From positions 1 through 53,478 of IMG/VR virus record IMGVR_UViG_3300020020_000038: a stretch of 53,478 nt of DNA; one strand, given 5' to 3'. Position 1 is the stretch's first letter. Every line of letters starts with the position of its first letter. Made by a program: the position numbers and the translations under genes. Positions 1 to 40,772 of this stretch are shown here, one piece after another. This stretch comes from a virus. The notes beneath the pieces are model-generated. The model saw only the letters and a program-made list of their open reading frames with translations. It was not told where the DNA came from and did not search any database.

Positions 1-209
1 ATCACGGCGGCGGAGTCGACACGGGCACCGTCGGGCAGGGGGACATGACGAACGGCGGCGACGGAGGCGACAGCCGGGTCGACGGGTCGACGGGCGACAC
101 GGACGACAGCGGTGATCCCGAGACGTTCAACGTCGCCCGAGTGAGGGGTGCCCATGATCCAGAGACGATCGGCGAGCTGCCAGCCGCGGGGCTTAGATGC
201 GGGAGCCAT
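1..209 (-). CDS. hypothetical protein, 3' end cut by window edge
   Basis: An ATG at 209 opens a frame that runs off the left edge with no stop for at least 69 codons. The N-terminus contains RGWQLADRLWIMGTPHSGD, which looks like real protein rather than shadow translation. The start lies inside the last codons of the 309-aa gene (17-nt overlap), so it is the next gene of the same minus-strand operon. No family is recognised. An overlapping frame from 226 reads as a Pro/Ser-rich shadow. Confidence 0.5.
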   Translation of the reverse strand, partial: MAPASKPRGWQLADRLWIMGTPHSGDVERLGITAVVRVARRPVDPAVASVAAVRHVPLPDGARVDSAAV

Positions 210-1122
210 CGGCCAACTTCTTCCACTCATCCTCCAGCCAGACACGAGGCCCGGTCCAGCCGTACACCTCGCCGAGATAGGAGTCGTCGAAGAGGGCGGC
301 ACGAATCGCTCGGAACGGCAACACGGATTCCAGCGCTGGGCCGTGGTGCTTCTCGGCGGTCAACCAGTAGGCCAGCTCACGATCCTGGGAGCGGCCCGGG
401 TACTTGCCGGTGAGCGCTTGGCGGTAGGTGCAGAGAAACACTTCGACGTCGTACCAGGAGACGGGGATGTCGGCGGAGCGGAGTCGTTCTCGGACTTCAA
501 AGGCGAGAGCGTCGGTGAGGCGTATGGTCCGCAGCGAGTTGCCGGAGAGCTGATCGGCACGGTCGGGGTAGAGAGCGGCGAGAGCGCGGCGGCCGTAGGT
601 GTTGCCGTCGGCACGGACATCGGAGGCAGCGCAGTCGAGGAGGCCGACGCGGTGCATGGTTTCGAGGACCTTGATGGTGGCGTAGCGGCCGAGCCCCCAG
701 ACATCGGTGGAGACGGAGTCGTAGACGGCGGGATAGGACCTGCGGCGCATCACCGGCCACCTGAGCCGAACCCAGCGACGCCACGATGCGTCGCATCGAT
801 GCAGCTTCTCGGGGGACTTGACAGCGCGGCGCTCCTTCCGCATTGGGAGCGTTGTGGAGGGTCCCCAGGCATCCTGCCACCAGGCGAGGTCGGGATCGCA
901 CGGGATGCAGCCGCGGCGTTCACGGCCAAGCCATTGGACAGCAGCGGCGGCGACGGTGTAGCAATTGACGAACTCACCGGCCATCATCGCCGCGCTGTAC
1001 TCGTCGGCAGCCCGAGCTCGAATGGCGTTGGCGACGATCTCGATCTGCGGGTCGGGGCCACCAGCGGCGATCTCCTCCCGGGCGTAGCGGAGGAGGAGCT
1101 GCCAGTGGAAGTCGGCAGACAC
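193..1122 (-). CDS. putative DNA base-modification enzyme (AADT / aGPT-Pplase-like)
   Basis: A 309-aa protein. The middle holds a helical block with WGLGRYATIKVLE (about residues 146-158), like the hGhGRYAxIK motif I recall from the alpha-glutamyl/putrescinyl-thymine pyrophosphorylase families, since renamed amino-acid:DNA transferases, which attach groups to activated hydroxymethylpyrimidines in phage DNA. Downstream there are conserved-looking Trp/Tyr/Arg segments. It starts 2 nt after the 67-aa gene and follows the TET-like dioxygenase in the same operon, which favours a role in modifying a base the dioxygenase has oxidised. Family assignment rests on motif memory and context. It could instead be an unrelated helical protein. 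Confidence 0.5.
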   Translation of the reverse strand: MSADFHWQLLLRYAREEIAAGGPDPQIEIVANAIRARAADEYSAAMMAGEFVNCYTVAAAAVQWLGRERRGCIPCDPDLAWWQDAWGPSTTLPMRKERRAVKSPEKLHRCDASWRRWVRLRWPVMRRRSYPAVYDSVSTDVWGLGRYATIKVLETMHRVGLLDCAASDVRADGNTYGRRALAALYPDRADQLSGNSLRTIRLTDALAFEVRERLRSADIPVSWYDVEVFLCTYRQALTGKYPGRSQDRELAYWLTAEKHHGPALESVLPFRAIRAALFDDSYLGEVYGWTGPRVWLEDEWKKLADGSRI

Positions 1123-1124
1123 AC

Positions 1125-1328
1125 TCAGGCTCCGTCAGCGGCGGCCAGGAGGGCACGAGCGGCGCGTAGGAGCCGGAAGTCGGCGTGCGGCTCGAAGTCG
1201 TCGACAGCGGCACGCAGTTCATCGAGGCGGTCGGAAAGAGGAGTAGGCGCTCCGGCTCCACGGAGGTTGAGCACGTCGGGGTCGTAGAGGAACGGCGAGG
1301 GGGTGACAATCTCGATTGGTTCATCCAT
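1125..1328 (-). CDS. hypothetical 67-aa protein between TET-like and AADT-like genes
   Basis: Starts with ATG at 1328 inside the last codons of the dioxygenase gene (stop at 1321) and ends 2 nt before the next start, so it is translationally coupled in the modification operon. The product is acidic and mostly helical (residues about 35-65, LDELRAAVDDFE...), with no zinc or catalytic motif. It may be a small adaptor or partner of one of its neighbours. Function is unknown. Confidence 0.65.
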   Translation of the reverse strand: MDEPIEIVTPSPFLYDPDVLNLRGAGAPTPLSDRLDELRAAVDDFEPHADFRLLRAARALLAAADGA

Positions 1329-2217
1329 CGGGACCTCCGGTTTGGGTTTGGGCCATTGCTCGGGCGCGGACCGTGGCACGACTGGCGGCACGGGCAATCT
1401 CGTCTTGTTCTGTGGCGGCGCAGGGGATGCAACCGCGGAGACCGTAGAACACGGCGGTCACCCGCCAGCCACGACGGGACACGGTCATCGGGGTGACGCC
1501 GTGGGTGACGTCGCCGCCGGGGAACGCGATGAGGGAGCGGTGGGTGACGGCGAGGGTGACGCCGTATTCGGGAAGATGGAGGTGGCCGCCATCGACAGAG
1601 GATCGGGCGCCGATCATCGCTGACCACGAGTGCGTCAGGTTGCCGGCGTCGCGGTGGTAGGGGAGGAGTTGGGTGAGGTTGAGGACACCGGACGTCCAGC
1701 CGGTGCCAGACCACTTCCAGACATCGGCGATATCGGCGGCGGAGGCGACGTTGGCCGAGGCGACAGCAGGAAGGTGCTCGGCGAGGACGTGGTGGCATTC
1801 GATGGCGACGGCACGCCACGAGCCGGGGTCGGTTTGCCGGGCGACGTTTGAGCGGGAGCATCCGTACCGCTGGCGCAGCGGCACCGGGGCAAGCGTGCCG
1901 AACATGGCTTGCCGGTCACCGATCCCGGAGAGACGAGCCCGACCGTCGAACCGGGCACCCCACTCGTGAGCGGCAGCGGCGATGTAGCCGGCAGCCGACG
2001 ACGACACAGACGCGGCGAGGGCGAGCGGACGGTCGTCGCAGTAGAGGATGCAGTCGGACAGCACCTCGGTCGGGACAGGGGCAACGGGTCGATGCTGGAG
2101 GCCACGGCAGTGGGGACAGGTGCGGCGGGCGACCGGGACATCACCACCGCACGACGGGCCGGCCTTGGAGGAACAGCGGTAGTAGACGTCGAGACGTTCG
2201 ACGTCAATCCGGCGCAT
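1321..2217 (-). CDS. TET/JBP-family 2-oxoglutarate/Fe(II) dioxygenase (DNA pyrimidine oxidase)
   Basis: A 298-aa protein predicted to hydroxylate 5-methylpyrimidines in DNA. The C-terminal half carries the double-stranded beta-helix motifs of the phage TET/JBP family: LPYHRDAGN with the iron ligands H188 and D190, WSAMI, GGHLHLPEYGV, the distal ligand H239 in THGVTP, and the 2-oxoglutarate-binding R252 in WRVTAVFYGL. A four-Cys zinc-ribbon candidate lies at the N-terminus (C15, C23, C34, C37). I chose ATG 2217, which overlaps the stop of the ParB-like gene by 14 nt; the open frame extends upstream only as ParB antiframe. Phage TETs are known to act on 5mC and be followed by further base decoration. 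No DNA methyltransferase is visible in this window, so the substrate is not fixed. Confidence 0.85.
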   Translation of the reverse strand: MRRIDVERLDVYYRCSSKAGPSCGGDVPVARRTCPHCRGLQHRPVAPVPTEVLSDCILYCDDRPLALAASVSSSAAGYIAAAAHEWGARFDGRARLSGIGDRQAMFGTLAPVPLRQRYGCSRSNVARQTDPGSWRAVAIECHHVLAEHLPAVASANVASAADIADVWKWSGTGWTSGVLNLTQLLPYHRDAGNLTHSWSAMIGARSSVDGGHLHLPEYGVTLAVTHRSLIAFPGGDVTHGVTPMTVSRRGWRVTAVFYGLRGCIPCAATEQDEIARAASRATVRARAMAQTQTGGPDG

Positions 2218-2812
2218 TCTCGACCATGAGTTTGACGACGGCGGAGTAGGTGTCGACCTGGTGGTGGCGGGCGATGCGATCGAGTGCTTCGGTGACCTTG
2301 TCGTGGGTGGCGACGTTGTAGGTGAGTTGGATGGTGCGGAGCCCTTTCGCTTCCCAACCGGGCAAGTCCTCCGACGCGGATGAGCCTTGCGTATCACGGG
2401 GAGTGAGGGCGTCGAGCATCGCTTTCGTCTGGGCGAGATCGTCGGGGCCATAGCCGGTGCCGGCGTAGTCACCGTCGAGGATGCCGATCAGCTCGGCGAG
2501 GGCATCGAAGTCATACCCGCCAAGATCGGAAGAGCGGTTGTCGACCAGCAGAATGCGCAGCGCCTGGTCATCATCGACATCGACGTAGACAACCGCGGCG
2601 TCGGTCCAGTTCAACGCTCGAAGAGCCTGGAGCGTGTGGTTGCCTTTGAGGACGTGGCGGGTGGAACGTTGGACCACGAGCGGGGCGTACTGGCCGTGGG
2701 CGGTCAGGGATTCCTTGATGACTTCGACGTCGCCACGGCGGGCGTTGCGGGGATGTTCGACGAGGGAGTCGACAGGGGCTTGCTCGATGGCGAGTCCGGG
2801 GATCAGTTGCAC
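2204..2812 (-). CDS. ParB-like nuclease/NTPase-domain protein 1
   Basis: A 202-aa protein with an N-terminal ParB/sulfiredoxin-like domain: EHPRNARRGD (residues 19-28), then KGNHTLQALRAL at 56-67, equivalent to the GxHRxxA box of ParB, then DDDQALRILLVDNR (80-93). The C-terminal 80 residues are variable and may recognise DNA or a partner. It overlaps the next ParB-like gene by 10 nt and the dioxygenase by 14 nt. ParB-like proteins are often found beside phage DNA methylases and TET-type enzymes, sometimes fused to them, so a targeting or modification role is likelier than partitioning. Confidence 0.85.
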   Translation of the reverse strand: MQLIPGLAIEQAPVDSLVEHPRNARRGDVEVIKESLTAHGQYAPLVVQRSTRHVLKGNHTLQALRALNWTDAAVVYVDVDDDQALRILLVDNRSSDLGGYDFDALAELIGILDGDYAGTGYGPDDLAQTKAMLDALTPRDTQGSSASEDLPGWEAKGLRTIQLTYNVATHDKVTEALDRIARHHQVDTYSAVVKLMVENAPD

Positions 2813-3381
2813 TTTGGCAGCTCCTCCTCGATGAGAGCAGCGACGACTTCGCTGTAGGACTCGAATCCGAACTGAGCAGCGAGCACGTCGAGCCGAGCAC
2901 AGAGAGCAGCATGCTCATCGACGGTGTAAGTGAGCAGGATGGAACGGGAGTCCAGCTCGTCCCAGCCGGCGTCGGGGCCGGCGTCAAGAGAAGCGAGACG
3001 GGCGTCGAGGTCGCCGGGCTCGTAGCCGGTGCCGACCAGATCGTTGAGACCGGCGAGCAGAGCGGTCAGCGACTGTTCCTCGTAGCCGCCCAGGTCGGCG
3101 GCACGGTTGTCGACGAGGAGGATGCGGAGGGCTTGGTCATCGTCGACATCGATGAAGGCGGCGTCGACGAACTCGAACCCGAGTTGCCGGGCGGCGAGCC
3201 AGGTGTGGTTGCCTTTGACGATGTGGTTGGTGGAGCGTTGGACGATGAGCGGGACGAACTGGCCGTGGACTTGGAGCGAGTCGCAGATGGCGTCGATGTC
3301 GCCACGGCGGGCGTTGTCGGGGTGAGGGTGGATTGAGTCGAGCGGCACTCGTTCGGACACGAGGTTCGTGATGACGGTCAT
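2803..3381 (-). CDS. ParB-like nuclease/NTPase-domain protein 2 (tandem paralogue)
   Basis: A 192-aa protein closely parallel to the next gene: HPDNARRGD, VKGNHTWLAARQLG and DDDQALRILLVDNRAADLGGY occur in the same order and spacing, so the two arose by tandem duplication. Both lack the Arg of the classical GxHR box (GNHT instead). It is the first gene of the modification operon, placed just after a 12-bp hairpin. Upstream of its ATG, TAGGGT (3393-3398) is a weak -10 candidate. The C-terminus differs from its twin (YSEVVAALIEEEL against YSAVVKLMVENAPD) but follows the same plan. Confidence 0.85.
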   Translation of the reverse strand: MTVITNLVSERVPLDSIHPHPDNARRGDIDAICDSLQVHGQFVPLIVQRSTNHIVKGNHTWLAARQLGFEFVDAAFIDVDDDQALRILLVDNRAADLGGYEEQSLTALLAGLNDLVGTGYEPGDLDARLASLDAGPDAGWDELDSRSILLTYTVDEHAALCARLDVLAAQFGFESYSEVVAALIEEELPKCN

Positions 3382-3419: not shown

Positions 3420-3454
3420 GGAACGACCGCCCCCCGTCGGGAGGCGGTCGTTCC
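3420..3454 (-). terminator. 12-bp perfect hairpin between two operons
   Basis: Bases 3420-3431 and 3443-3454 are perfectly complementary (12 bp, 8 G-C pairs) with an 11-nt loop. The hairpin follows the stop of the 158-aa gene (3469) and precedes the ParB-like start. No U-tract follows on the minus strand, so termination may be incomplete or factor-dependent. It marks the boundary of the modification operon. Confidence 0.6.
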
Positions 3455-3468
3455 TGTTGACCGGTGTG

Positions 3469-3945
3469 CTACGAAGCAACGGCGGAGAGATGCCGCTCGC
3501 CGATGCCCAGCTCGCTGCGGACGAGGGCGACGGCTGGGTCCATGCGGACCCGGCTGACCTTGACGCCAGCGGCCCGACAAGCGACGTACAGGCGGGACAC
3601 ACCGACCTTGGGATTGGCGGCGAACTCCTGGCGGACGACGGCGACCACCGCAGCATCCGCCCCACCGTTGCTCTGGCGGGCCTCCAGCAGTGCTTCGGCT
3701 TCGGCGACGGCATCGGCCACGTTGAGTCCGGCAGGCGTCTCCTGTCGTCCCTCAGCGTCCGATCCGGGGACTTCGGGCTCGGCGGTGGCGTCGGCCTTGG
3801 AGGCTTCGATTTCGGCCTTGGCGGCGGTCGCCGAGAGGAAGCGGAGCGGTACGCCTTCGGCGTCGAGGAGCGGGTTGCCGTTCTCGTCGAGGACGTTGTA
3901 GTTGCGGGAGGCAACCTTGGTGACGGTGAACTGTTCTGGATTCAT
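3469..3945 (-). CDS. hypothetical 158-aa protein
   Basis: Starts at ATG 3945, overlapping the 80-aa gene by 4 nt (ATGA). The first 40 residues read like a small beta domain (NVLDENGNPLLDAEGVPLRFL). A low-complexity acidic linker follows, then a C-terminal helical region (about 105-158) with RLYVACRAAGVKVSRVRMD, which could be a DNA-binding helix pair. No known family is recognised. It is last in its operon, just before the hairpin at 3420-3454. Confidence 0.7.
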   Translation of the reverse strand: MNPEQFTVTKVASRNYNVLDENGNPLLDAEGVPLRFLSATAAKAEIEASKADATAEPEVPGSDAEGRQETPAGLNVADAVAEAEALLEARQSNGGADAAVVAVVRQEFAANPKVGVSRLYVACRAAGVKVSRVRMDPAVALVRSELGIGERHLSAVAS

Positions 3946-4184: not shown

Positions 4185-4191
4185 AACACTG

Positions 4192-4220
4192 ATTATAGAG
4201 GAACGTGGTGCAGAAGTAAA
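4192..4220 (-). promoter_or_regulatory. sigma70-type promoter, leaderless
   Basis: On the minus strand, TTTACT (4215-4220) is followed by a 17-bp spacer and a perfect TATAAT (4192-4197). The ATG of the 80-aa gene comes 7 nt later. The -35 lies in GGGGTTTACTTC, a block repeated at 5582 and 8453. Confidence 0.85.
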
Positions 4221-4241
4221 CCCCTATTTAACCTTCGTGTT

Positions 4242-5551: not shown

Positions 5552-5558
5552 AACACCG

Positions 5559-5587
5559 ATTATAGACGAGGGGTGTCAGGAAGTAAA
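5559..5587 (-). promoter_or_regulatory. sigma70-type promoter, leaderless
   Basis: TTTACT (5582-5587), 17-bp spacer, GTC-TATAAT (5559-5564), then 7 nt to ATG 5551. It is nearly identical to the promoter at 8429-8458, including the block CACCCCTCGTC. Confidence 0.9.
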
Positions 5588-5590
5588 CCC

Positions 5591-5789
5591 CTATTTCTCT
5601 GGTTCGGTGACGGGGGTGCCGCTGACGACGACGTCGTAGAAGCATTGGCGGAACCCGTCCTCAGACGACCACGTCGGGACAATCTCGACGCGGGGCTCAC
5701 GCACCTCGTCCAGGGCACCCATGATGGAACGCCCAGGCAGCCGGCAGATCGGGGACACGTTCGACGATCTTGAGGTAGCGCTCAGCCAC
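5591..5789 (-). CDS. hypothetical protein, frame split by one base
   Basis: GTG 5789 gives AERYLKIVERVPDLPAAWAF and then loses sense. A frame one base away, from ATG 5722 to the stop at 5591, gives MGALDEVREPRVEIVPTW...VVVSGTPVTEPEK. Dropping a single C near 5726 fuses them into one coherent protein of about 65 aa. Either a sequencing indel or a real frameshift explains it. Its stop abuts the promoter at 5559. Confidence 0.55.
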
Positions 5790-8388: not shown

Positions 8389-8428
8389 TGGTTCCCCTCT
8401 CAGGGTTCGGTGGTGGTTAACAACCCTG

Positions 8429-8458
8429 ATTATAGACGAGGGGTGTAACGGAAGTAAA
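8429..8458 (-). promoter_or_regulatory. sigma70-type promoter of the DUF932-like gene
   Basis: TTTACT (8453-8458), 18-bp spacer, GTC-TATAAT (8429-8434). The gene starts 40 nt downstream with a Shine-Dalgarno site. The sequence is almost the same as at 5559-5587, showing a reused promoter cassette. Confidence 0.85.
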
Positions 8459-8463
8459 CCCTT

Positions 8464-8874
8464 TTATTCTTTGGGGCGGCGGAGCAGATCGAGGAACGAC
8501 GGAGGACGCTCCTGCTTCTTGCCGATCGAGGAGAACGCCATCCGGATACTTTGCACGAGGAACTCGGAAGCGATGTCGTCGGCGGCGGACTCACTGAACC
8601 CGGCCTCGATGAGTTGCTTGCGGGTGCCAGTGGCGAGGTCGACGAACCCGGAGAACAAGTCGCCCATCGACATGAGGGCGGCCCCGATGGGATTGGCTGG
8701 CGGAGTGTCGGGCGTTGAGGCTCTCACGTAGCCGGCGGCCTCGACCGCGCAGGCGTTGCAGAGGCCCGGGCCGCCACAACGAGCGATGTTGGTTGGGCGG
8801 TCGAGTGGGTACTGCGGCACGCCGGGGATGGCATGTCCGTGGGTGGTCCAGCCAGCCTTGATTGGGTCGGTCAT
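8464..8874 (-). CDS. hypothetical 136-aa protein with Cys cluster
   Basis: Starts at ATG 8874, overlapping the J-domain gene stop by 4 nt. The N-terminal 50 residues hold ARCGGPGLCNACAVE, a possible three-Cys metal site. A helical region with LIEAGFSESAADDIASEFLVQ follows, and the C-terminus PPSFLDLLRRPKE is basic. Family unknown. Confidence 0.6.
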   Translation of the reverse strand: MTDPIKAGWTTHGHAIPGVPQYPLDRPTNIARCGGPGLCNACAVEAAGYVRASTPDTPPANPIGAALMSMGDLFSGFVDLATGTRKQLIEAGFSESAADDIASEFLVQSIRMAFSSIGKKQERPPSFLDLLRRPKE

Positions 8875-15439: not shown

Positions 15440-16317
15440 TGGGTAGTCCCTTCAATGGCGTTGGTGGGCAGCGCCGGCTTGATGCCGAGCAGCGGACGAG
15501 AACCGAACTCTGGCCCAGGTGAACCCTCGCCGGCAAGAGCCCGGGCAACATCCCGACGGGCCTGCTCGGGGAGCGACAGGCGGCCGGTGCGCGCCGGCAA
15601 CGCCTCAACGTCATTCCACCGGTCCTGATGCAGCCACGTGGACGGATGCACGATGAACTGTGGTTTCGTCGCGGCCTGCTCCCACCAGACGACCCGCCTT
15701 TGGAGCCCGTCGATGATCGCCTCCGCAGGAGCACGCTTCACCGCACGCGCCCATTCCAGCTCGGCTGCACGTTTGCCGACCTTGCGCGGGTAGAGCTTCC
15801 AGAACTCCTCGAACGACGGTGGCCGGGGGGGTGCTTCAACATCCACGAGCACAAGTTCGCCGTCACCGTTGCAAGAACCGGAAAGAGTGTTAGAGGAGGA
15901 CGGTTCTAAGGATGGTTCATAGGACGGTTCGGGGGGCGCGGGAGGCACCCCCGTCGGGCCGTCGGAGGCACCCCCGCGGGGGGGCGCGGGAGGCACCCCC
16001 GTTGAGTTGGACGGGGGGGCGCGGGAGGCACCCCCGTCGAAGTGGATGGTGTAGCGGTTGGGGCGGCGGTCGCCGGGCGTGTCTTTGGAGCCGCCAGCGT
16101 TGATTTCGGTGGTGATGTAGCCGAGCGATTCCAGGGCGCGAAGCGCGATTCGGACGGATTTCTCAGTGATGCCGGCGTAGCGGGCGAGGGTGGCTTTGGA
16201 GGGCCAGGCTCCGCCGTCGCCGTCGTGGTTGGCGATGCCGATGAGGACGAGACGTTGAATGGGGGTGAGTTGGTCGTCGACGATGTTGAGTGCCCGGCTG
16301 ACGGACTCGATACTCAT
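15436..16317 (-). CDS. HTH replication initiator-like protein
   Basis: A 293-aa protein. Residues 15-75 form a winged helix-turn-helix (HTH_36/DnaD-like): AWPSKATLARYAGITEKSV, RIALRALESLGYITTE. A Pro/Gly-rich linker with GVPPAPP repeats follows. The C-terminus has a domain common in phage replication proteins (FEEFWKLYPRKVGK...FIVHPSTWLHQDRWND). Start ATG 16317 has GGAGG 6 nt upstream. Probably binds the origin and loads the helicase, known for this protein type but not shown here. Confidence 0.75.
   Translation of the reverse strand: MSIESVSRALNIVDDQLTPIQRLVLIGIANHDGDGGAWPSKATLARYAGITEKSVRIALRALESLGYITTEINAGGSKDTPGDRRPNRYTIHFDGGASRAPPSNSTGVPPAPPRGGASDGPTGVPPAPPEPSYEPSLEPSSSNTLSGSCNGDGELVLVDVEAPPRPPSFEEFWKLYPRKVGKRAAELEWARAVKRAPAEAIIDGLQRRVVWWEQAATKPQFIVHPSTWLHQDRWNDVEALPARTGRLSLPEQARRDVARALAGEGSPGPEFGSRPLLGIKPALPTNAIEGTTQ
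15937..16036. repeat. four copies of GGAGGCACCCCC
   Basis: The 12-mer GGAGGCACCCCC occurs at about 15941, 15964, 15989 and 16024 within the linker of the HTH protein, encoding the GVPPAPP-like repeats. Local expansion of a flexible linker is the simplest reading. Iterons at a replication origin inside the initiator gene are also possible. Confidence 0.7.
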
Positions 16318-21894: not shown

Positions 21895-21949
21895 CGGTAG
21901 CTCAGCGCCGATTCCCGGGGCCTGGAGGCCCTCCGGGCAGCTTTACCGC
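21894..21949. terminator. structured element between convergent genes
   Basis: Outer arms GCGGTAGCT (21894-21902) and AGCTTTACCGC (21939-21949) pair with a TT bulge. The inner arms CCCGG (21914-21918) and CCGGG (21933-21937) enclose GGGCCTGGAGGCCC. It lies between the plus-strand HNH stop and the minus-strand glycosyltransferase stop and may serve both as terminator. The string GGTAGCTCAG is tRNA-like but no tRNA fold exists. Confidence 0.5.
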
Positions 21950-23177
21950 CCAGAAACCGCCTGCGGGCGCCAGGCACGCTCGATTTCGACGGCTTCGGCC
22001 CACACTTCAGCCGTCCGCCAGGCGTTCCCTTCGACCGTCAACCGGCCGGCCACCTCACGACCCGCTGCCGACTGCTCCGCACGGAGCGCCGGGTCCCGGA
22101 CGAGGGACCGCAACGCCCGCAGCCAGTCTTTCGGCTTGGCAGCCAACGCGCCGCAGCCGAGCGCGGCGAGACGCTGGTACTCGGGGCGGGGCGACGCAAC
22201 CCACGGCACCCCCGCCGCGGACAGCTCCAGCGGTTTGAGCCAGGACTTGGCCTCGTTGAACCGGGACTCCGCCAGCGGCGCGACACCGACGCCGAGCTGG
22301 GCGACGGCTTCGATCCAGCCGTCGTACCCGATCGGACCGGTCATGGGGACTTCCACCCCCAGCTCACGGTCGGCCCCGGTGGAGTCACCGACGACCAGGA
22401 ACCGGCCGCCGTCGCGCAGTAGAGACGCGACAGCGCCGCCCATGACGGCGAGATCGCCGGGATGGGAGTGGGTGGAGCCGGGCCAACCGACGAGATCGGA
22501 GTCCTCGTGCGGGGTGTCAAGGAACCGGGCCGGGACGTAGTTCTCGATGACCCGGGCGTTCCCCCGTCCGTAGCGGCCGGCGAGGGCGGGCGTGGAGACG
22601 GTGGTGAGGGTGGCGGAAGCGGCAGCTTCCTTGGCGGCGAGCCACGAATGACGAGGGAACGACCCGAGGAACTTGACGTACAGGTCGAGGGCGAGCCGGT
22701 TGAGCATGGACTGGGACAGGGCGTCAGGATCGCGGCCTTCGGCACGGAGCCGGGTGAGGACCATCTCAGCGATGTGTTGCCGGGTGGAGTCGGACTCGTA
22801 GGACCAGAGCCGACCCGAGCGCCGATCGGGGTGCATCATCACCCACGCGGGATTGGCCGGATCGATGTGGGACAGATCATCGTCGAGGTCGACGACGACG
22901 GCGACACCCTTGGCACGCCAGAACGGGATAGCGGCGGCGACGTCGGGGACGGTCGGCCGTTGGAACACGAGCAGATCGGCGTCCTCCGGGCAGTGGGCTT
23001 CGATGACGGCGTCGCCTTTCATGATGACACGCAGCCCGGTGTCGGCGTCCTTGCGGGGTTCGTTGATGACGACTTCGATGTCAGGGTGAGCCTCGTGGAT
23101 GGCGCGGGCAGGCCAGATCAGGCGGACATTCAATGGCCGCACGCCCAAAGGTCGGCAGGCCAGACATATACCTTCAT
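21943..23177 (-). CDS. GT-B glycosyltransferase, frameshift near the N-terminus
   Basis: ATG 23177 gives MKVYVWPADLWACGH and then a stop in frame; the rest of the protein (LNVRLIWPARAIHEAHPDIEV...) is read one base off, from about 23132 to 21943. Joined, it is a glycosyltransferase of roughly 410 aa: a central VVVDLDDDLSHIDPAN, then SAAGVPWVASPRPEYQRL, the sugar-nucleotide-binding loop of GT4-like enzymes. The ATGA overlap with the HNH-AP2 gene supports the 23177 start. A one-base indel in the assembly is likely; a GTG at 23144 could rescue a shorter form. Confidence 0.7.
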
Positions 23178-23695
23178 CGTGCGGCAGGCTCACCCGCCAC
23201 GACGGAACCCCCTTCTGCGGAGGCGTTGTTGAGGCGAGCGAACTCACCCCACGCGGCCTCCGCCGCTCGATCGTAGGCATCAGCGGCCTCGGCTTCCGTT
23301 CCGAAGGCCCCCAGGTACCGCGTGCGGCCGTCGATGTGAATGTGGGAGACCCACCGATTGTGAACACCGTTGCGCGATTTGATCGAGACGCCCTTGTAGC
23401 GGGAGGTGCGACCCCGCTTGCGATTCGGCCCAGCGTTGGCCCGGTTCTGCGCCTTGGACGCGAAGCGCAGGTTGGAGGTCCGATTGTCGAGAGGGTCGCC
23501 GTTCTCATGGTCGACACGTTGATCAGGCCCAGCGCCAGCGATGAGACGGTGGAGGAACAGGAACATCTGCCCACGCATCGCCGCCACGTAGCCCTGAGCC
23601 GTGAGCTTCCAGACGAACCCGGCGACCAACTCGCGGTCAGCGGCGTCGACTACAGCCCGGACCCCATCACCCAGTTCGATCCAATGGTCGGACAT
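23174..23695 (-). CDS. HNH homing endonuclease with AP2 DNA-binding domain
   Basis: A 173-aa protein. The HNH core at about 55-85 reads VDHENGDPLDNRTSNLRFAS. The AP2/ERF domain at about 105-155 reads SRYKGVSIK, NRWVSHIHIDGRTRYLGAF, GTEAEAADAYDRAA. AP2-HNH fusions are typical mobile homing endonucleases. Start ATG 23695 is chosen for the TATGTT 7 nt upstream. It lies between a methyltransferase and a glycosyltransferase and may have carried neighbours with it. Confidence 0.9.
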   Translation of the reverse strand: MSDHWIELGDGVRAVVDAADRELVAGFVWKLTAQGYVAAMRGQMFLFLHRLIAGAGPDQRVDHENGDPLDNRTSNLRFASKAQNRANAGPNRKRGRTSRYKGVSIKSRNGVHNRWVSHIHIDGRTRYLGAFGTEAEAADAYDRAAEAAWGEFARLNNASAEGGSVVAGEPAAR

Positions 23696-23702
23696 TTCGG
23701 CC

Positions 23703-23708
23703 AACATA
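23703..23708 (-). promoter_or_regulatory. extended -10, leaderless HNH-AP2 gene
   Basis: TGC-TATGTT on the minus strand, 7 nt from ATG 23695. Confidence 0.6.
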
Positions 23709-23726
23709 GCACCCGACCGCACGCGT

Positions 23727-24935
23727 TCATCCGATCACCTCGAAGCGGGGGCAGGGCACGACCAGCTTGCCGCCAGCGGCGAGGTAGGCGGCTTCCCGTT
23801 TGGTGAACTCCGTCAGGAACTGCCAGGGCAGCACGAGCGCATACTCCGGGTGGGCGGCACGCATCGCCGATTCGGGCCAGATCGGGATGTCGGTGCCGAC
23901 GGTACGCAGCCCGTACTTCTGGGGTTGCCGTTCGGCGATCCCTTGGATGAGAGACGAGTCGAGCCCGAAGAACTGCAACAGAGTGTTGCCCTTGGTGGAG
24001 GCGCCGTAGCCCCAGACCTTGTCGCCGCGGCGGGCAGCGGAAGTCAGGAACCCGGAGACGTCGGCGGCGAGGACGTTGACGGCGTGCCAGAACGCCATCC
24101 ACGGGTCGGGCGTGTTGACGGCGGTCCACAGTTCCTCGGCGAGCAAGGCGTCGAGGCGGAACTGGCCGACGTCGCGCCACGGTTGGGAACCGATCTTGCG
24201 GACGTCGGCGATCTCGTGGGTGGCGAACACGCGCAGCGATCCGCCGTTGACGGTGTTCAGTTCGGCGTCGAGCACTTGGAACCCGAAGGCCCGCAGCGTG
24301 TCGGTGAGGGTGGTGAGGGAGTAGTAGCGGGCGTGCTCGTGGCAGATGGCGTCGAAGGCGAGCTGGCGGAGCATGAGCGGGGCATAGGCGAGTTGGATGA
24401 CGAACACCCCGTCGGCGGCAAGCATTTGACGGACCGCCCACAGGAACGGCCCGGGGTCCATCAGGTCGTAGAACATGGCGGCGCAGGTCACGACGTCGGC
24501 CGGCCCGTACTTGTCGACGATCCGGTCGGCGACATCCAACGTGAACGGCTCTTGTACGACGAGGTCAGCGTGGCGTTCGCACTCCACCCGGAACGAGTCA
24601 TCGGCGGGGTCGACCCCGACGCGCTTCGCCTCGTCGGACACGTAGGACAGGAGGGTGCCGTCGTTGGAGGCGATGTCGACCCACACGTCGTAGCCGACGA
24701 CTTGCTCGACGGCCATGACGATGTCGTGCAGCTCGAACCGCATCGTCTGGTTGACACCGGACCGATACCAGTAGCGGCCCCACATCAGCTCGGCGGGCGG
24801 CTGGGCGGCGAGGTGCACGAGGCCGTCGCCATCCATCTGCATTTGGAGCGGGAACGGATCGGCGCGAGGAACCTCGTCGAGGGCGAGGAAGTCCGAGACG
24901 TACAGGTCACCGAGGGAGAACAAGTCAGTCGTCAT
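23727..24935 (-). CDS. SAM-dependent sugar C-methyltransferase (NovU/TylC3-like)
   Basis: A 402-aa protein. The N-terminal ~85 residues correspond to the usual zinc-binding lead domain of this family but lack the four Cys. The SAM-binding core has VDIASNDGTLLSYVSD (about 95-110) and GVDPADDSF. CHEHARYYSLTTL (about 200-212) is the conserved CHEHxxYYS-type motif. The C-terminal domain holds VWGYGASTKGNTLLQFFGL. These enzymes C-methylate nucleotide-linked deoxysugars or related keto-sugars. Start ATG 24935 is set by the shared divergent promoter. Missing zinc ligands are unusual and might mean altered substrate. Confidence 0.85.
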   Translation of the reverse strand: MTTDLFSLGDLYVSDFLALDEVPRADPFPLQMQMDGDGLVHLAAQPPAELMWGRYWYRSGVNQTMRFELHDIVMAVEQVVGYDVWVDIASNDGTLLSYVSDEAKRVGVDPADDSFRVECERHADLVVQEPFTLDVADRIVDKYGPADVVTCAAMFYDLMDPGPFLWAVRQMLAADGVFVIQLAYAPLMLRQLAFDAICHEHARYYSLTTLTDTLRAFGFQVLDAELNTVNGGSLRVFATHEIADVRKIGSQPWRDVGQFRLDALLAEELWTAVNTPDPWMAFWHAVNVLAADVSGFLTSAARRGDKVWGYGASTKGNTLLQFFGLDSSLIQGIAERQPQKYGLRTVGTDIPIWPESAMRAAHPEYALVLPWQFLTEFTKREAAYLAAGGKLVVPCPRFEVIG

Positions 24936-24944
24936 ATCGGGCGT

Positions 24945-24954
24945 AGTGTAATCT
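24945..24954. promoter_or_regulatory. overlapping divergent -10 elements
   Basis: Only 25 bp separate ATG 24935 (minus) and ATG 24961 (plus). TAATCT (24949-24954, plus) lies 6 nt from its ATG, and TACACT (24945-24950, minus) lies 9 nt from its ATG. The hexamers overlap, so the two genes may compete for polymerase. Confidence 0.5.
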
Positions 24955-24960
24955 AGGTTT

Positions 24961-25935
24961 ATGGCCAGAGTGTTGATCATCAATCACGGCGGATCGACCG
25001 TGTGCGGCATCCACGACTTGGGTTCGAGGATGGCGATGCGGCTCCGCGACGAGACCGACTTGCACGTCGGGTACGCGGCGTGCTCGACGGCGGACGAGTA
25101 CCGGAAGGCGCGTGCCGACCATGACCCGGACGCCGTGATCGTGAATTACCGGGCGGACCTGGCGCCGTGGTGGAGGCAGGTCGCTCACGAGCCGGGCGGG
25201 GTCCGGTGGGCGGTGGCGCACAACTACGAGCCCGGGAACCTTGTGCAGCACGCCCAGACGATCCGTAGCCACGGCTTCGATCGAGTCCTGGCGCTCGACC
25301 CCCCGTTGTACGCCGGCACCGCTTGGGCCGAACACGGGGTGGACATCGTCGGGCGGCCACTCCCACCGACAGCCAGGACAGTTCCGGGAGACGGCCCGGC
25401 GCGCATCGGGACGTTCGGGTTCGCCTTCCCGCACAAGGGGTTCGTCGAGGTGGCCCGCGAGGTCAACATGACGCTCGCCGAGGGCACGTTCGATCTGCAC
25501 ATGCCGGAGGCATGGTTCAACGGCGCCGAGGGGCGGCCGTTGTACGGGCCGGCGATCCTCGATTCGTGCCGGGACCAGATCGATCACGGAGGCCGGATCA
25601 CGTTCCATCACACGTCGAACCACCTGCCGTCGCCTGACCTGGTGGACAGGCTCGGCAAGAACGATGTCAACATACTCCTGTACGCGCCGGGCCAGCCCGA
25701 CGCCGGACTGTCGTCGGCACTCGACTACCTGATTGCGGCGCGCCGGCCGGCGATCGTGACGGATTGCGCCATGTTTCGGCACGGACTCCCGCACGTCGCG
25801 GTTTGGCCGGCCGTCACGTTGCGCGACGTCCTCAACCATCGGGAGCAGTGGGAGCGACAGGCGACAGCGTTGTGGTGGGCGCACACCGGCCGATTCTCCA
25901 GCGACATCGAGACGGTCCTTGACCGATGGGCGTGA
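24961..25935 (+). CDS. putative GT-B glycosyltransferase
   Basis: A 324-aa protein starting MARVLIINHGGSTVCGIHDLG, the N-terminal nucleotide-sugar domain pattern of GT-B enzymes. FGFAFPHKGFVEV (about 160-172) is the linker/donor loop, and YAPGQPDAGLSSALDYLIAARRPAIVTDC carries the C-terminal sugar-binding block. No acceptor can be named. It begins a four-gene plus-strand unit ending in FkbM. Confidence 0.75.
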   Translation: MARVLIINHGGSTVCGIHDLGSRMAMRLRDETDLHVGYAACSTADEYRKARADHDPDAVIVNYRADLAPWWRQVAHEPGGVRWAVAHNYEPGNLVQHAQTIRSHGFDRVLALDPPLYAGTAWAEHGVDIVGRPLPPTARTVPGDGPARIGTFGFAFPHKGFVEVAREVNMTLAEGTFDLHMPEAWFNGAEGRPLYGPAILDSCRDQIDHGGRITFHHTSNHLPSPDLVDRLGKNDVNILLYAPGQPDAGLSSALDYLIAARRPAIVTDCAMFRHGLPHVAVWPAVTLRDVLNHREQWERQATALWWAHTGRFSSDIETVLDRWA

Positions 25936-26060
25936 GCGACGACGAGTGCGTTTGCGGGCACCCCCACGTCTGGCACACGCTTGACGAGACACGTTGCCAG
26001 TTCCATTGCGGCAACCCTGAACGATGCCCATGCACCGGATACGAGGAGGCCCAGCGATGA
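25932..26060 (+). CDS. Cys/His-rich zinc microprotein (42 aa)
   Basis: GTG 25932 overlaps the glycosyltransferase stop (GTGA); an ATG six bases earlier is an alternative. CVCGHPHVWH, CQFHCGN and CPC give seven Cys/His in 30 residues, so it must bind metal. Stop overlaps the next ATG. Function unknown. Confidence 0.65.
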   Translation: MSDDECVCGHPHVWHTLDETRCQFHCGNPERCPCTGYEEAQR

Positions 26061-26275
26061 TCGGACTACCACACAGCGAAGGCGCAGCGATCCACCGGCG
26101 CCCACCAAGCGAAGTGATGCGCGCCACCGTCGACCTGGAGCACGCCTGGAGTCACCCCAAAGTGACCATCGTCCCCGCCCGACGCCGCAAACCCCGCCAA
26201 CGCTGGTGCGCCCACTGCGCTGGCAATCACGCCGAGACCGAATGTCCGAGCCGACCTGAACGGCCCGACCGATGA
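26057..26275 (+). CDS. zinc-knuckle microprotein (72 aa)
   Basis: ATG 26057 overlaps the stop of the 42-aa gene. The C-terminus has CAHCAGNHAETEC (CX2CX3HX4C), one residue shorter than the retroviral knuckle, after a basic region VPARRRKPRQRW. Probably binds RNA or single-stranded DNA. The pair of zinc microproteins links the glycosyltransferase to FkbM. Confidence 0.65.
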   Translation: MIGLPHSEGAAIHRRPPSEVMRATVDLEHAWSHPKVTIVPARRRKPRQRWCAHCAGNHAETECPSRPERPDR

Positions 26276-26910
26276 CGTGGTACAGCCAGGCCGGACAGGA
26301 CAAGTGGGTGAGTGAGCAGATGCGAGCCTTGACCGGACGGAGCACGGGATGGTTCGTGGACGTCGGCGCCTACGACGGAATCTCCACGAGCAACACGTAC
26401 GCCTTGGAGCAGGCCGGCTGGCAAGGCTTGTGCGTCGAGCCCGGCCCGAGCTTCGAACAACTGAAGATGAACCGGAGTTGCGCCGTCACACGGCAGGCAG
26501 CATCAAACTTCACGGGAGGCGTCCGATTCGACGGGATGAGCGTCATCGCCGACGATGGAGCACCCGTGCACGGCGAGAGCTACGTGCCGTGCGCCACCCT
26601 CGACTACCTGATGGACAGCGCCGGCATCCCACACGTCGTCGACTACCTGTCGATCGATGTCGAGGGCCACGAACCCGAAGTGCTCGACGGCATCAACTTC
26701 GCCCGCCGACACTTCCGGTTCATCACCATCGAACACAACGCCTACCGAGACGGCCCAGCCCTAAAGACGGCGATCCACGACCACTTGACCGCAGCCGGAT
26801 TCATCCGGGCAGTCGACAACGCCGGATGCGTCGACCCGTGCCCGCCACCGGCCTACCCCGGGTGCCCGTTCGAGGACTGGTACATCAACCGGACCGTCCG
26901 CCGAACGTAG
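26272..26910 (+). CDS. FkbM-family methyltransferase
   Basis: A 212-aa O-methyltransferase of the FkbM group, which often methylates sugars or peptides. SAM site GWFVDVGAYDGISTSNTYA (26-44), then EPGPSFEQL and LSIDVEGHEPEVLDGI (about 126-141), the signature IDVEG-E motif. The C-terminus CPFEDWYINRTV is typical. ATG 26272 overlaps the previous stop. With the C-methyltransferase and four glycosyltransferases it suggests a decorated glycan. Confidence 0.9.
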   Translation: MTWYSQAGQDKWVSEQMRALTGRSTGWFVDVGAYDGISTSNTYALEQAGWQGLCVEPGPSFEQLKMNRSCAVTRQAASNFTGGVRFDGMSVIADDGAPVHGESYVPCATLDYLMDSAGIPHVVDYLSIDVEGHEPEVLDGINFARRHFRFITIEHNAYRDGPALKTAIHDHLTAAGFIRAVDNAGCVDPCPPPAYPGCPFEDWYINRTVRRT

Positions 26911-31487: not shown

Positions 31488-32825
31488 TCATGCAGCCTCT
31501 ACCACAAGCACCCAGTCGCCGTCACCGGCAGCGTTCGTCCCGAGCGACCCGAACGATTGCGAACCGGTCGTAGCGAACACCCCGAGAGACGTCGCGGCCA
31601 GGTTGACGGGGTCGACCTTGAACACTTCACAGTTGGTCGGGGCAAGCATGCCGACGTTGAGACCGACAGTGGCCGCTCCACCACTGGGCCGGTAGACGAC
31701 AGCGAGCGTCCCGCTGGTGGCAGCGGTGTCAACTCGGGCACCGATCAACAGGCCACCCGACCCACGCCCCGTGGTGACGAACGTAGACCCCAACGGCAGC
31801 ATCGTGGACCAGCGGGTGCCGAGACCGATGATGAATTGGGCGAACATCTCCAGCTTCAATGAGCCGGGCGAATCCAGATTCGATTCCCACGTCCCGGTCC
31901 ACGCGATCCCCCACGAGGCGTCCTCGAAATGCCAGATCGGGTTGTTCCCGAACAGGACGTAGCAAGCACCACCGACGAACGGCCCCCACATCTGCGACCG
32001 CAGATACGGCTCGTCACCGTATTGATCCTCATGATCAAAGTCGGCTTCGTAGTGCCCCTCGAAGAACCCGACCGGAATCGCCGACGCCGCGTACGCCGTC
32101 TCGGTGTCGGCAGCCGGAGTGTTGCCGTAGTCGTAGATGGTGTCGAGGTCGAACGTGATCCCCGGATAGAACGTCGAACCGAGCGAGCCGCTGAGACCAC
32201 CCGGAGCAACCAGGAAACCACTGTTGGCTCGTAGCGCCGTAGCGACGTTCGCTTGGCGATCCTCCAAGGTGGCGTCGGGGTCGAAGTCGTGCCCGATCAG
32301 CCAGATCAGGTTGGGGCGATCGGCGTACCGTTGGGCGAGCGACGTCGCATAGGTGGACACCTGCCCGTTGGTCGCCGCCGCCAGCTCGGTCCGCCAACCG
32401 TCGCCGAGGTTGAACCCGAGGTACGTCATACACACGATGACCGTGAACCCCAGGCGTTCCATCTCATCGAAGATGAAGTCGATGTGTTCCCAGTACGGCT
32501 CGTTCAACGACGACTGGTACGCGGTCCCAGTGAACGGCAGGTCACCGTTGACGTTGCGTTCGGGCGGGGTCTGGTTGGAGAACCCGCCCTCGGGAGCGTT
32601 GAACAGACTGAGGTTGAAACCCTTCGCCGCCCGATCCTCCAGGTAGGTCGTTACCTCGGCGGCGGTGAGTTGCACCCCGAGCGACCACGCCGTGTCAGCG
32701 ACACCAAACCAGGGTTGTCCGTTCTGATCGACAAGGTAGGTGCCGTCACCCGAAACCGCCGTGGCGAACGGCAACCCAGTCTCGATGAACCTCAGATGGT
32801 GATCTGTGCGGACGGTCACGGCCAC
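31488..32825 (-). CDS. DUF4038/GH140-like glycoside hydrolase, probable tail depolymerase
   Basis: A 445-aa TIM-barrel enzyme resembling DUF4038/apiosidase (GH140): YLVDQNGQPWFGVADTAWSL (about 28-47), AAKGFNLSLFNAPEGG, LGFTVIVCMTYLGFNLGDGW, then RPNLIWLIGHDFDPDATLED, PVGFFEGHYEADFDHEDQYG. The last 90 residues match the C-terminal beta domain usually paired with it. In bacteria these enzymes cut apiose or other side chains of pectin or exopolysaccharides. Position among tail genes suggests a virion depolymerase for host capsule. No signal peptide. Confidence 0.75.
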   Translation of the reverse strand: MAVTVRTDHHLRFIETGLPFATAVSGDGTYLVDQNGQPWFGVADTAWSLGVQLTAAEVTTYLEDRAAKGFNLSLFNAPEGGFSNQTPPERNVNGDLPFTGTAYQSSLNEPYWEHIDFIFDEMERLGFTVIVCMTYLGFNLGDGWRTELAAATNGQVSTYATSLAQRYADRPNLIWLIGHDFDPDATLEDRQANVATALRANSGFLVAPGGLSGSLGSTFYPGITFDLDTIYDYGNTPAADTETAYAASAIPVGFFEGHYEADFDHEDQYGDEPYLRSQMWGPFVGGACYVLFGNNPIWHFEDASWGIAWTGTWESNLDSPGSLKLEMFAQFIIGLGTRWSTMLPLGSTFVTTGRGSGGLLIGARVDTAATSGTLAVVYRPSGGAATVGLNVGMLAPTNCEVFKVDPVNLAATSLGVFATTGSQSFGSLGTNAAGDGDWVLVVEAA

Positions 32826-38845: not shown

Positions 38846-38922
38846 CAGGTCACCAGACAGACCCAACCACCGACCACCGCCACGATGCCTAGCAACGTGT
38901 AGGTGACGGCACGGGCGATCAT
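38845..38922 (-). CDS. membrane microprotein (25 aa)
   Basis: ATG 38922 overlaps the tailspike stop (ATGA), and its stop overlaps ATG 38845 (TGATG). The peptide is essentially one hydrophobic helix, VTYTLLGIVAVVGGWVCLVT. Being overlapped at both ends by real genes supports it. Function unknown. Confidence 0.5.
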   Translation of the reverse strand: MIARAVTYTLLGIVAVVGGWVCLVT

Positions 38923-40772
38923 GCGAACCGCACAGCGACCGACGGAATGTTCGACGCCACACTCGACGTCGCCGCCGGAGACGGCAAAGAGGTGCCGACC
39001 ACCGAACCACGGTTACGGCCAGCCCGCAAGTTGGTGCCGGCGACGGCGTTGGCTAGTGACGAGTTGACCCCGGCCCACGACCCCGAAATGACCCGCATCG
39101 TCGGTGTGCCACCCTGCACGAGCGCAGCGAAATGGTAGACCTCGCCACCGACCAACGCTTGACTGATCGTCAACTCCTGTGCCGTGGCTGAGCCGCCGTC
39201 GATCGTACCGGCGTCAAGCAGCAAAGTCGAGGCGGAGCCGGCGCCGTCGTCGTTGTAGATCCCTAGCGAGATGGTCGATGCGGCCGCCAATGTCGTCACC
39301 TCGGCACCGATCCGGTTCACCGTACAATCGATCGGCACATACACGCCGAACGTGTACAAGGTGCCGGCAGTCGTCACCGCTGTCGTCCGCGTCAACGGCA
39401 TTCCCCAATACTCGTTGGTTTTGCCGAACAGCGATGGCGCGATGCCGGACAGGTCCGCCGACGCCGGGGCTGCCGCCGGCAACTCCAACGACTCGATGCC
39501 GAGGGCGTGCCCGGCATCATCCATCGTGACGAACCCGGTAAGGCGCAGCGACCCGTTACCTGTCACCGTGAACAGGGTCGACACGTCGTAAGGGGCGTCC
39601 GCCGAGACGATGGCTAGGCCCTCGATGAACAGTCGGGACGATCCGCCGCCACCCGGCTGGACGGCGATCTTGGGGACGACCCCGGAAGGCGGGTTGACAC
39701 ACTTGACCTCGCTCATCGAGAACGTGCCGCCCAGATCGAACCGAACCCAGTAGGTGTCGGTGTGTAAGTCGTTCGCCGAATAGAGGACGTCACGCATCGT
39801 GATCATCGGCGGCGCCGACGACCCGGTGTTCGTGATCAGGAGACGTTGATATGACTCGACACGCATCCCGTTGAACGTGTTGTGTCCGGTCAAACCGACT
39901 TTGATGGCGGCTTCGCCGCCGGCGAACCCGGCACCGAACACGGCGGCCTGAGACGCCGAGTTGACGAGGCCGTAACGGATGCTTTGGATGCGCAGGTGAT
40001 AGACGTTGTGAGTCAGGTTGTTGCCGCCAGTCCCGTTGCCCAACACGAGACCTTCTTGGTAGCGGGCCGCCTCCCCGTCCTCCCACGCCCCATTCAAAAT
40101 GATGTGGTCGAACACGTCGTCGGACACGTCGGCACCGCCGACACCGGGTTTGCCGACCCGAAACGCGGTGACGAAATCGAGGTTGCGGACCGTGATGTTG
40201 CGGTAGCTGTTGGCCGTGTTCGACCGGGACGACCCGGCCGAATCCCAATAGGTGTAGAAGGCGTTGTCGACCTGCACCCCGGCCGAACCGGTGATCGTGA
40301 ACCCTTCGAAGAGCGAGTAGGCCGCCCCGTTGATGTCGAACACGGCGGCCATGTTGCTGTCTGCCCGCAACTCACACATGCCCTGCCCGATGATCTGTAC
40401 CCCGATCACGGACCGCACCGTGATCGGGGCGGCCAACAGGTAGATGCCAGCAGGTAGGACGACTCGACGGTTCGCCGTCCGCACGGTCGTCACCGGATCA
40501 CCCGGGCCGCAGGCTTCGTCGATCGCCGCCTGTAACGCCGCCGAGTTGACGGTGCCTGACGCGGCGGTGGAGAACCCGTAGGTGCGGGGGTCGATGTCGG
40601 TGTTGGCTGCTTTCCGTCCGGCCGGGGTCACCGCCAACACTGTCGATGTCCCGGCGATCGTCTCAGGGGTCGTCGCAAAGTTGAACTCGGGGTCCAACGC
40701 ATCGATCTGCGCCTGCAAATCGGCGAGTTCGGCAATGACCGATGACGAACTCGAGGAACGGACATTCAACAT
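38919..40772 (-). CDS. beta-helix tailspike protein
   Basis: 617 aa. A coiled-coil or head-binding start (SVIAELADLQAQIDAL), then a right-handed parallel beta-helix from about 70 to 420: RTYGFSTAASGTVNSAALQAAIDEA, RRVVLPAGIYLLAAPITVRS, DHIILNGAWEDGE, RIQSIRYGLVNS. A beta-sandwich C-terminal domain (GTLYTFGVYVPIDCTVNRIG) resembles the ones in the GITD proteins and may mediate trimerisation or binding. Pectate-lyase-type spikes bind and cut host polysaccharide; no catalytic residues are named here. Confidence 0.85.
   Translation of the reverse strand: MLNVRSSSSSSVIAELADLQAQIDALDPEFNFATTPETIAGTSTVLAVTPAGRKAANTDIDPRTYGFSTAASGTVNSAALQAAIDEACGPGDPVTTVRTANRRVVLPAGIYLLAAPITVRSVIGVQIIGQGMCELRADSNMAAVFDINGAAYSLFEGFTITGSAGVQVDNAFYTYWDSAGSSRSNTANSYRNITVRNLDFVTAFRVGKPGVGGADVSDDVFDHIILNGAWEDGEAARYQEGLVLGNGTGGNNLTHNVYHLRIQSIRYGLVNSASQAAVFGAGFAGGEAAIKVGLTGHNTFNGMRVESYQRLLITNTGSSAPPMITMRDVLYSANDLHTDTYWVRFDLGGTFSMSEVKCVNPPSGVVPKIAVQPGGGGSSRLFIEGLAIVSADAPYDVSTLFTVTGNGSLRLTGFVTMDDAGHALGIESLELPAAAPASADLSGIAPSLFGKTNEYWGMPLTRTTAVTTAGTLYTFGVYVPIDCTVNRIGAEVTTLAAASTISLGIYNDDGAGSASTLLLDAGTIDGGSATAQELTISQALVGGEVYHFAALVQGGTPTMRVISGSWAGVNSSLANAVAGTNLRAGRNRGSVVGTSLPSPAATSSVASNIPSVAVRFA

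Follow-up and report, generated by a model that had tools for sequence, protein, structure and literature searches.

Gene content of the locus

The window analysed here is the whole linear IMG/VR record IMGVR_UViG_3300020020_000038 (53,478 bases), a fragment of a viral genome of 65% GC with a candidate DNA hypermodification cassette at its left end. A first-pass annotation, made from the letters of this DNA, had described a compact set of five minus-strand genes at 193-3381, and this was borne out by open reading frame coordinates and codon-position G+C. The first gene encodes ParB-like protein 1 (192 aa, 2803-3381) and is followed by the genes for ParB-like protein 2 (202 aa, 2204-2812), a TET/JBP Fe(II)/2-oxoglutarate dioxygenase (298 aa, 1321-2217), a protein of 67 aa (1125-1328) and an amino-acid:DNA transferase (AADT) family protein (309 aa, 193-1122). 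Successive genes among the first four overlap by 10, 14 and 8 nt, while the AADT gene starts 2 nt past the stop of the 67-aa gene. Third-position G+C of the cassette frames, including the open frame of the 67-aa protein, is 0.69-0.81, matching coding DNA of a 65% GC genome and supporting their coding nature.

The hairpin that had been proposed as the upstream boundary is real. It spans 35 nt (3420-3454), separating the cassette from the preceding gene (3469-3945), and has a 16-bp stem; the minimum free energy over the 87-nt interval is -43.2 kcal/mol, with a z-score of -3.4 against shuffles. No T run follows the hairpin. The left boundary at 193 had to be revised. The 5' start of a further minus-strand gene, with 69 aa visible (3-209), overlaps the AADT stop and leaves the contig, and the operon is therefore cut and not complete. 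With good confidence, these genes can be regarded as the 5' part of a tailed-phage hypermodification cassette.

ParB-like protein 1 matched ParB_N over the cut-off (2.6e-6) and a ParB-like PHROG (4.8e-39), while ParB-like protein 2 matched ParB_N below the cut-off (0.0039) and PHROG 723 (7e-43); the gene of the latter directly overlaps the TET gene downstream. The two proteins are 46% identical and form one clade (support 96) with the ParB of the closest relative, locus L002 (see below), so that a local tandem duplication within the window lineage seems their likely origin. A 153-nt direct repeat (75%) is present in the tandem genes. The suggestion that twin ParB genes represent a new arrangement was rejected, as 19 other loci have at least two ParB matches; Arthrobacter phage Ottawa, for example, carries two ParB genes directly before its TET gene.

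The 298-aa protein matched Tet_JBP (PF12851) with an E-value of 1.7e-6 and 27.8 bits, which is below the curated Pfam cut-off of 34.9, and clear relatives of this protein likewise score below it. The sub-threshold Pfam matches of both the TET and the AADT protein were borne out independently by family alignments, PDB profile matches and fold matches. Residues H188, D190, H239 and R252, singled out in the first-pass annotation, are invariant across 42 aligned TETs and provide the HxD...H iron-binding triad and the downstream arginine for 2-oxoglutarate. The predicted model (predicted local distance difference test, pLDDT, 92) retrieved TET2, NgTET1, CMD1 and CcTET structures in all of the 16 top PDB rows (Z 14.8-18.9), the best being TET2 and NgTET1 (Z 18-19). 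With NgTET1, human TET2 and kinetoplastid JBP the protein has in common the double-stranded beta-helix fold, the iron site and the 2-oxoglutarate arginine, at 12-16% identity to the solved TETs. By motif and predicted fold it is a TET/JBP enzyme. Its N-terminus carries a four-cysteine zinc-ribbon-like segment, found otherwise only in L002 and, with altered spacing, in L003.

The TET family bears a queuine tRNA-ribosyltransferase label in PHROG 6059 and RefSeq. This label was rejected because the labelled proteins match Tet_JBP; on L008:813-1730, L009:810-1766 and PHROG 6059 it looks like a propagated misannotation.

For the 309-aa protein, the Pfam match to ADDT (PF18724) was weaker (3.2e-4, 20.9 bits, below the cut-off of 26.2), while relatives that align with it score far over the cut-off, such as that of phage Wooper with 90.8 bits. 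All nine residues invariant among 33 AADTs are kept in the window copy (E97, R98, R99, G145, E227, C231, G239, Y241 and G243). A PDB search with the single sequence gave chance matches only, whereas the family profile matched 25qc, an amino acid:DNA transferase domain protein (1e-14), and 8z2m (6e-4). The best folds for the model (pLDDT 91) were 8z2n and 8z2m, the 5-phosphomethyl-deoxyuridine (5-PmdU) glycinyltransferase of phage PaMx11 (gp46/PUGT; Z 16.4 and 16.1). The shared fold extends over 243 residues with a root-mean-square deviation of 3.2, and the ERR and E..LC motifs are common to both proteins at 13% identity. The next matches (Z about 10-10.7) were queuine-salvage and helix-hairpin-helix glycosylase folds with other functions. 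The predicted AADT-like identity thus held up on family residues, PDB profile matches and modelled fold, and the protein is on these grounds a divergent AADT.

No Pfam or PHROG match was obtained for the 67-aa protein, nor a tblastn match in phages or a counterpart in the other related loci. The edge gene (3-209) gave no Pfam match and has no relatives in any collection searched; a dual-specificity-phosphatase-like N-terminus was noted by eye only and was not confirmed. Both may be lineage-specific accessories at most.

The cassette in other genomes

About 100 related loci were collected and scanned with profiles built in this analysis. As the loci were fetched by TET or AADT queries, the presence of TET is partly by construction, but the link between AADT and kinase is not. 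A viral-contig search with the single window AADT protein gave no match, while the AADT profile retrieved 16 loci. TET was detected in 102 loci, with a ParB gene close upstream in 94 of them, and AADT in 49, every one of which also carries the kinase Ploopntkinase3. In 21 loci a TET-associated glycosyltransferase (TAGT) is present, never together with AADT. An Asp-hydroxylase-like dioxygenase is added in 18 AADT loci and a DAO-type oxidoreductase in a few. The terminase large subunit was detected in 35 loci, and terminase comes next where the contig extends that far. On the TET tree the different tailoring types are interspersed (27 changes on 90 tips, from a quick tree only), and the modules therefore seem to have been exchanged among the loci. 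Taken with the profiles, catalytic residues and folds, this synteny supports the first-pass reading of the five genes as a DNA hypermodification operon with TET/JBP and AADT.

The cassette has already been seen in many actinobacterial phages, and the window copy is a divergent, truncated member. These families were reportedly defined by Iyer and co-workers (2013). Copies were also found in cellular genomes of Corynebacterium and Brevibacterium and in an actinobacterial metagenome-assembled genome, which is in line with an actinobacterium as the probable host of the window phage.

For Rhodococcus equi phage Tonitrus, a ParB-like protein, a Tet-like J-binding protein, aGPT-Pplase2 and a 5-hydroxymethyluracil (5-hmU) DNA kinase have been described as a possible thymidine hypermodification system (PMC11955845). 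Tonitrus and Gordonia phages Wooper and LittleMunchkin show the same order of ParB, TET and AADT/aGPT-Pplase2 as the window, and in the two Gordonia phages the cassette lies directly before the terminase region. The window differs from these three phages in its two ParB genes, the 67-aa gene between TET and AADT, the zinc-ribbon-like TET N-terminus, the orphan gene after AADT and a kinase that is not in the contig.

The closest relative, L002 (IMGVR_UViG_3300037070_001372), has a TET that is 54-56% identical with the same four-cysteine N-terminus and, like the window, a ParB gene upstream of TET. Unlike the window it has a single ParB gene, an extra Asp-hydroxylase-like dioxygenase, and TET and AADT fused as one 639-aa protein (L002:2536-4455). 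Downstream of the fusion gene lie the kinase gene and one resembling a terminase small subunit. The fusion is strong evidence that TET and AADT act together. Cassettes with TET and TAGT, such as that of Mycobacterium phage Serendipitous, have the ParB-TET-tailoring-terminase layout in common with the window, but would attach a sugar (TAGT and a PIG-L-type deacetylase) in place of an amino acid. Among other cultured relatives, Microbacterium phage Kozie is of the AADT type, as are Wooper and LittleMunchkin, whereas Cinna has the kinase but no AADT, and in KayaCho neither AADT, TAGT nor an annotated kinase lies next to TET.

No Ploopntkinase3 or terminase large subunit was detected in the window, which ends 192 bp past AADT; the expected position of the latter is beyond the contig end. 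Since all 49 AADT loci carry Ploopntkinase3 and the window does not, the kinase gene is predicted just past the left end. The right end of the window cuts a tape-measure gene, and by comparison with the relatives, a single missing segment that joins both ends is predicted to carry the genes for kinase, terminase, portal and capsid proteins. No extension past the left end was obtained when viral contigs were searched for exact 24-mers.

Substrate base and proposed pathway

The first-pass annotation had reported no DNA methyltransferase in the window, and left open whether one lies outside or thymine is oxidised directly. For the C5-methylase family (PF00145) the absence was confirmed in the window, within the limits of a fragment, and it extends to ten annotated relatives. 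Likewise, PF00303 (thymidylate synthase/dCMP hydroxymethylase) was found neither in the window nor in four annotated relatives and two contigs. Among 92 further records, PF00145 scored over the cut-off in eight and was absent from 84; for records of at least 35 kb it was found in 6 of 38. These eight C5-methylase genes lie 2.3-18 kb from TET, outside the cassette.

Of the two routes, direct oxidation of thymine is favoured, with the 5-methylcytosine (5mC) route kept as the alternative. Thymine appears somewhat the likelier substrate of the TET because C5-methylase is absent from the window and most relatives, and because the nearest solved relative of the AADT acts on phosphomethyl-deoxyuridine and the kinase of the relatives is named a 5-hmU kinase.

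The genes present, the families to which they belong, their catalytic residues and folds and their conserved linkage were observed, and from these we infer a pathway with its substrate base, amino acid, missing kinase, ParB role and protective function. The ParB-like proteins would bind viral DNA and help to direct or regulate modification, as suggested by their near-universal linkage to TET. TET would then hydroxylate a pyrimidine within existing DNA at its 5-methyl group, preferably converting thymine to 5-hmU, or alternatively 5mC to 5-hydroxymethylcytosine (5hmC). The hydroxymethyl group would be phosphorylated by the DNA 5-hydroxymethyl-pyrimidine kinase (Ploopntkinase3) predicted past the left end. 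AADT could subsequently flip the base out, so that an amino-acid amine displaces the phosphate to give an aminoacyl-methyl-pyrimidine. Restriction sites would be masked by the end product, and the modification probably shields the phage DNA from bacterial defences. The cassette would be situated directly before the terminase genes, which fall outside the contig.

In M6- and PaMx11-like phages, hydroxymethyluracil probably arises at the nucleotide stage through a thymidylate-synthase homologue (PMC9599517), whereas in the window a TET would act instead. There is about an even chance that the ParB-TET-AADT-kinase family places amino acids on thymines wholly after replication, with TET/JBP hydroxylating thymine in DNA directly, in a JBP-like manner, with ParB guiding the sites, and with neither a methyltransferase nor a hydroxymethyl-dUMP synthase.

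Several points weigh against the proposed pathway. Linkage is the single line of evidence for the function of ParB. The kinase is not in the window, so the pathway is incomplete as seen, and the edge gene after AADT does not resemble a kinase. With identities of 14-27%, the AADT of the window is divergent, and it is altered at several nearly invariant sites (W46M, S59A, T228V and D232T), including some that are 90% conserved. Phage TETs that have been studied biochemically use 5mC as substrate, according to the citation of Burke et al. (2021) in PMC12730594. Such 5mC could come from the host, and a methyltransferase could be hidden in the head and packaging region that the contig lacks.

The last points would fit a cytosine route, in which the 5mC oxidised by TET would come from a methyltransferase encoded by the host or by the phage genes missing from the contig, and kinase and AADT would decorate 5hmC. 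This route is tentative and clearly the less probable of the two. In its favour, 5mC oxidases are the nearest structures to the TET model, and C5-methylase does occur in the eight related records mentioned. The ranking of closest folds is uninformative on base specificity, however, and neither the ten annotated relatives nor most of the long contigs encode a C5-methylase, which is not in the cassette where it is present. The activity of the nearest AADT structure on phosphomethyl-deoxyuridine also speaks against cytosine.

The altered AADT sites and the missing kinase could also point to a degenerate cassette, in which AADT has diverged or its kinase partner has been lost, leaving DNA with only a hydroxymethyl base or another adduct, and in which the edge and 67-aa genes replace the downstream steps. 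Both orphan genes do occupy the positions of AspH, DAO and kinase genes in the relatives. Such decay is unlikely, as all nine invariant AADT residues are kept, the kinase is present in all 49 AADT loci, and the window stops 192 bp after AADT while the kinase of the relatives lies up to about 2 kb on. Another role of the TET, ParB and AADT genes, for example in RNA modification or regulation, to which the PHROG 6059 label would point, is very improbable, because that label sits on Tet_JBP-matching proteins and the DNA-binding ParB neighbours, the DNA-modifying AADT fold and the kinase and TAGT partners point to DNA.

As one more divergent member, the window copy is of less interest than the substrate question. 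Most of the surveyed records of this TET branch are without a C5-methyltransferase and, where searched, without a pyrimidine hydroxymethylase, and several members are cultured phages of Gordonia, Microbacterium, Arthrobacter and Mycobacterium. The survey makes it testable whether thymine in DNA is a hydroxylation substrate of the phage TETs on this branch. If thymine is the true substrate, the base-J pathway has bacterial counterparts in these phages, whose tailoring modules can be swapped between sugar and amino acid and would be useful for labelling DNA.

Other features of the contigs

In cyanophage MED4-117 (L012:7078-7779), a FkbM/TRM5-like methyltransferase gene is located between ParB and TET, and could represent an unusual methyl donor or a tailoring step. 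The window itself encodes a glycosyltransferase-like protein, a sugar C-methyltransferase (PF08484) and an FkbM methyltransferase at 21943-26910. Their targets may be glycans of the virion or the host, or else the modified base. The apiosidase-like and pectate-lyase-like proteins at 31488-32825 and 38919-40772 suggest a polysaccharide-degrading tail.

A G/C-rich 35-nt unit (CGGGGGGGCGCGGGAGGCACCCCCGT...) occurs three times at 15929-16046, overlapping a minus-strand helix-turn-helix gene. Three similar repeats of about 49 nt (4185-4233, 5552-5600 and 8422-8470) are situated upstream of minus-strand genes, and two of them contain an exact TTTACT-17-TATAAT promoter-like site together with a common AATAGGGGTTTACTT element.

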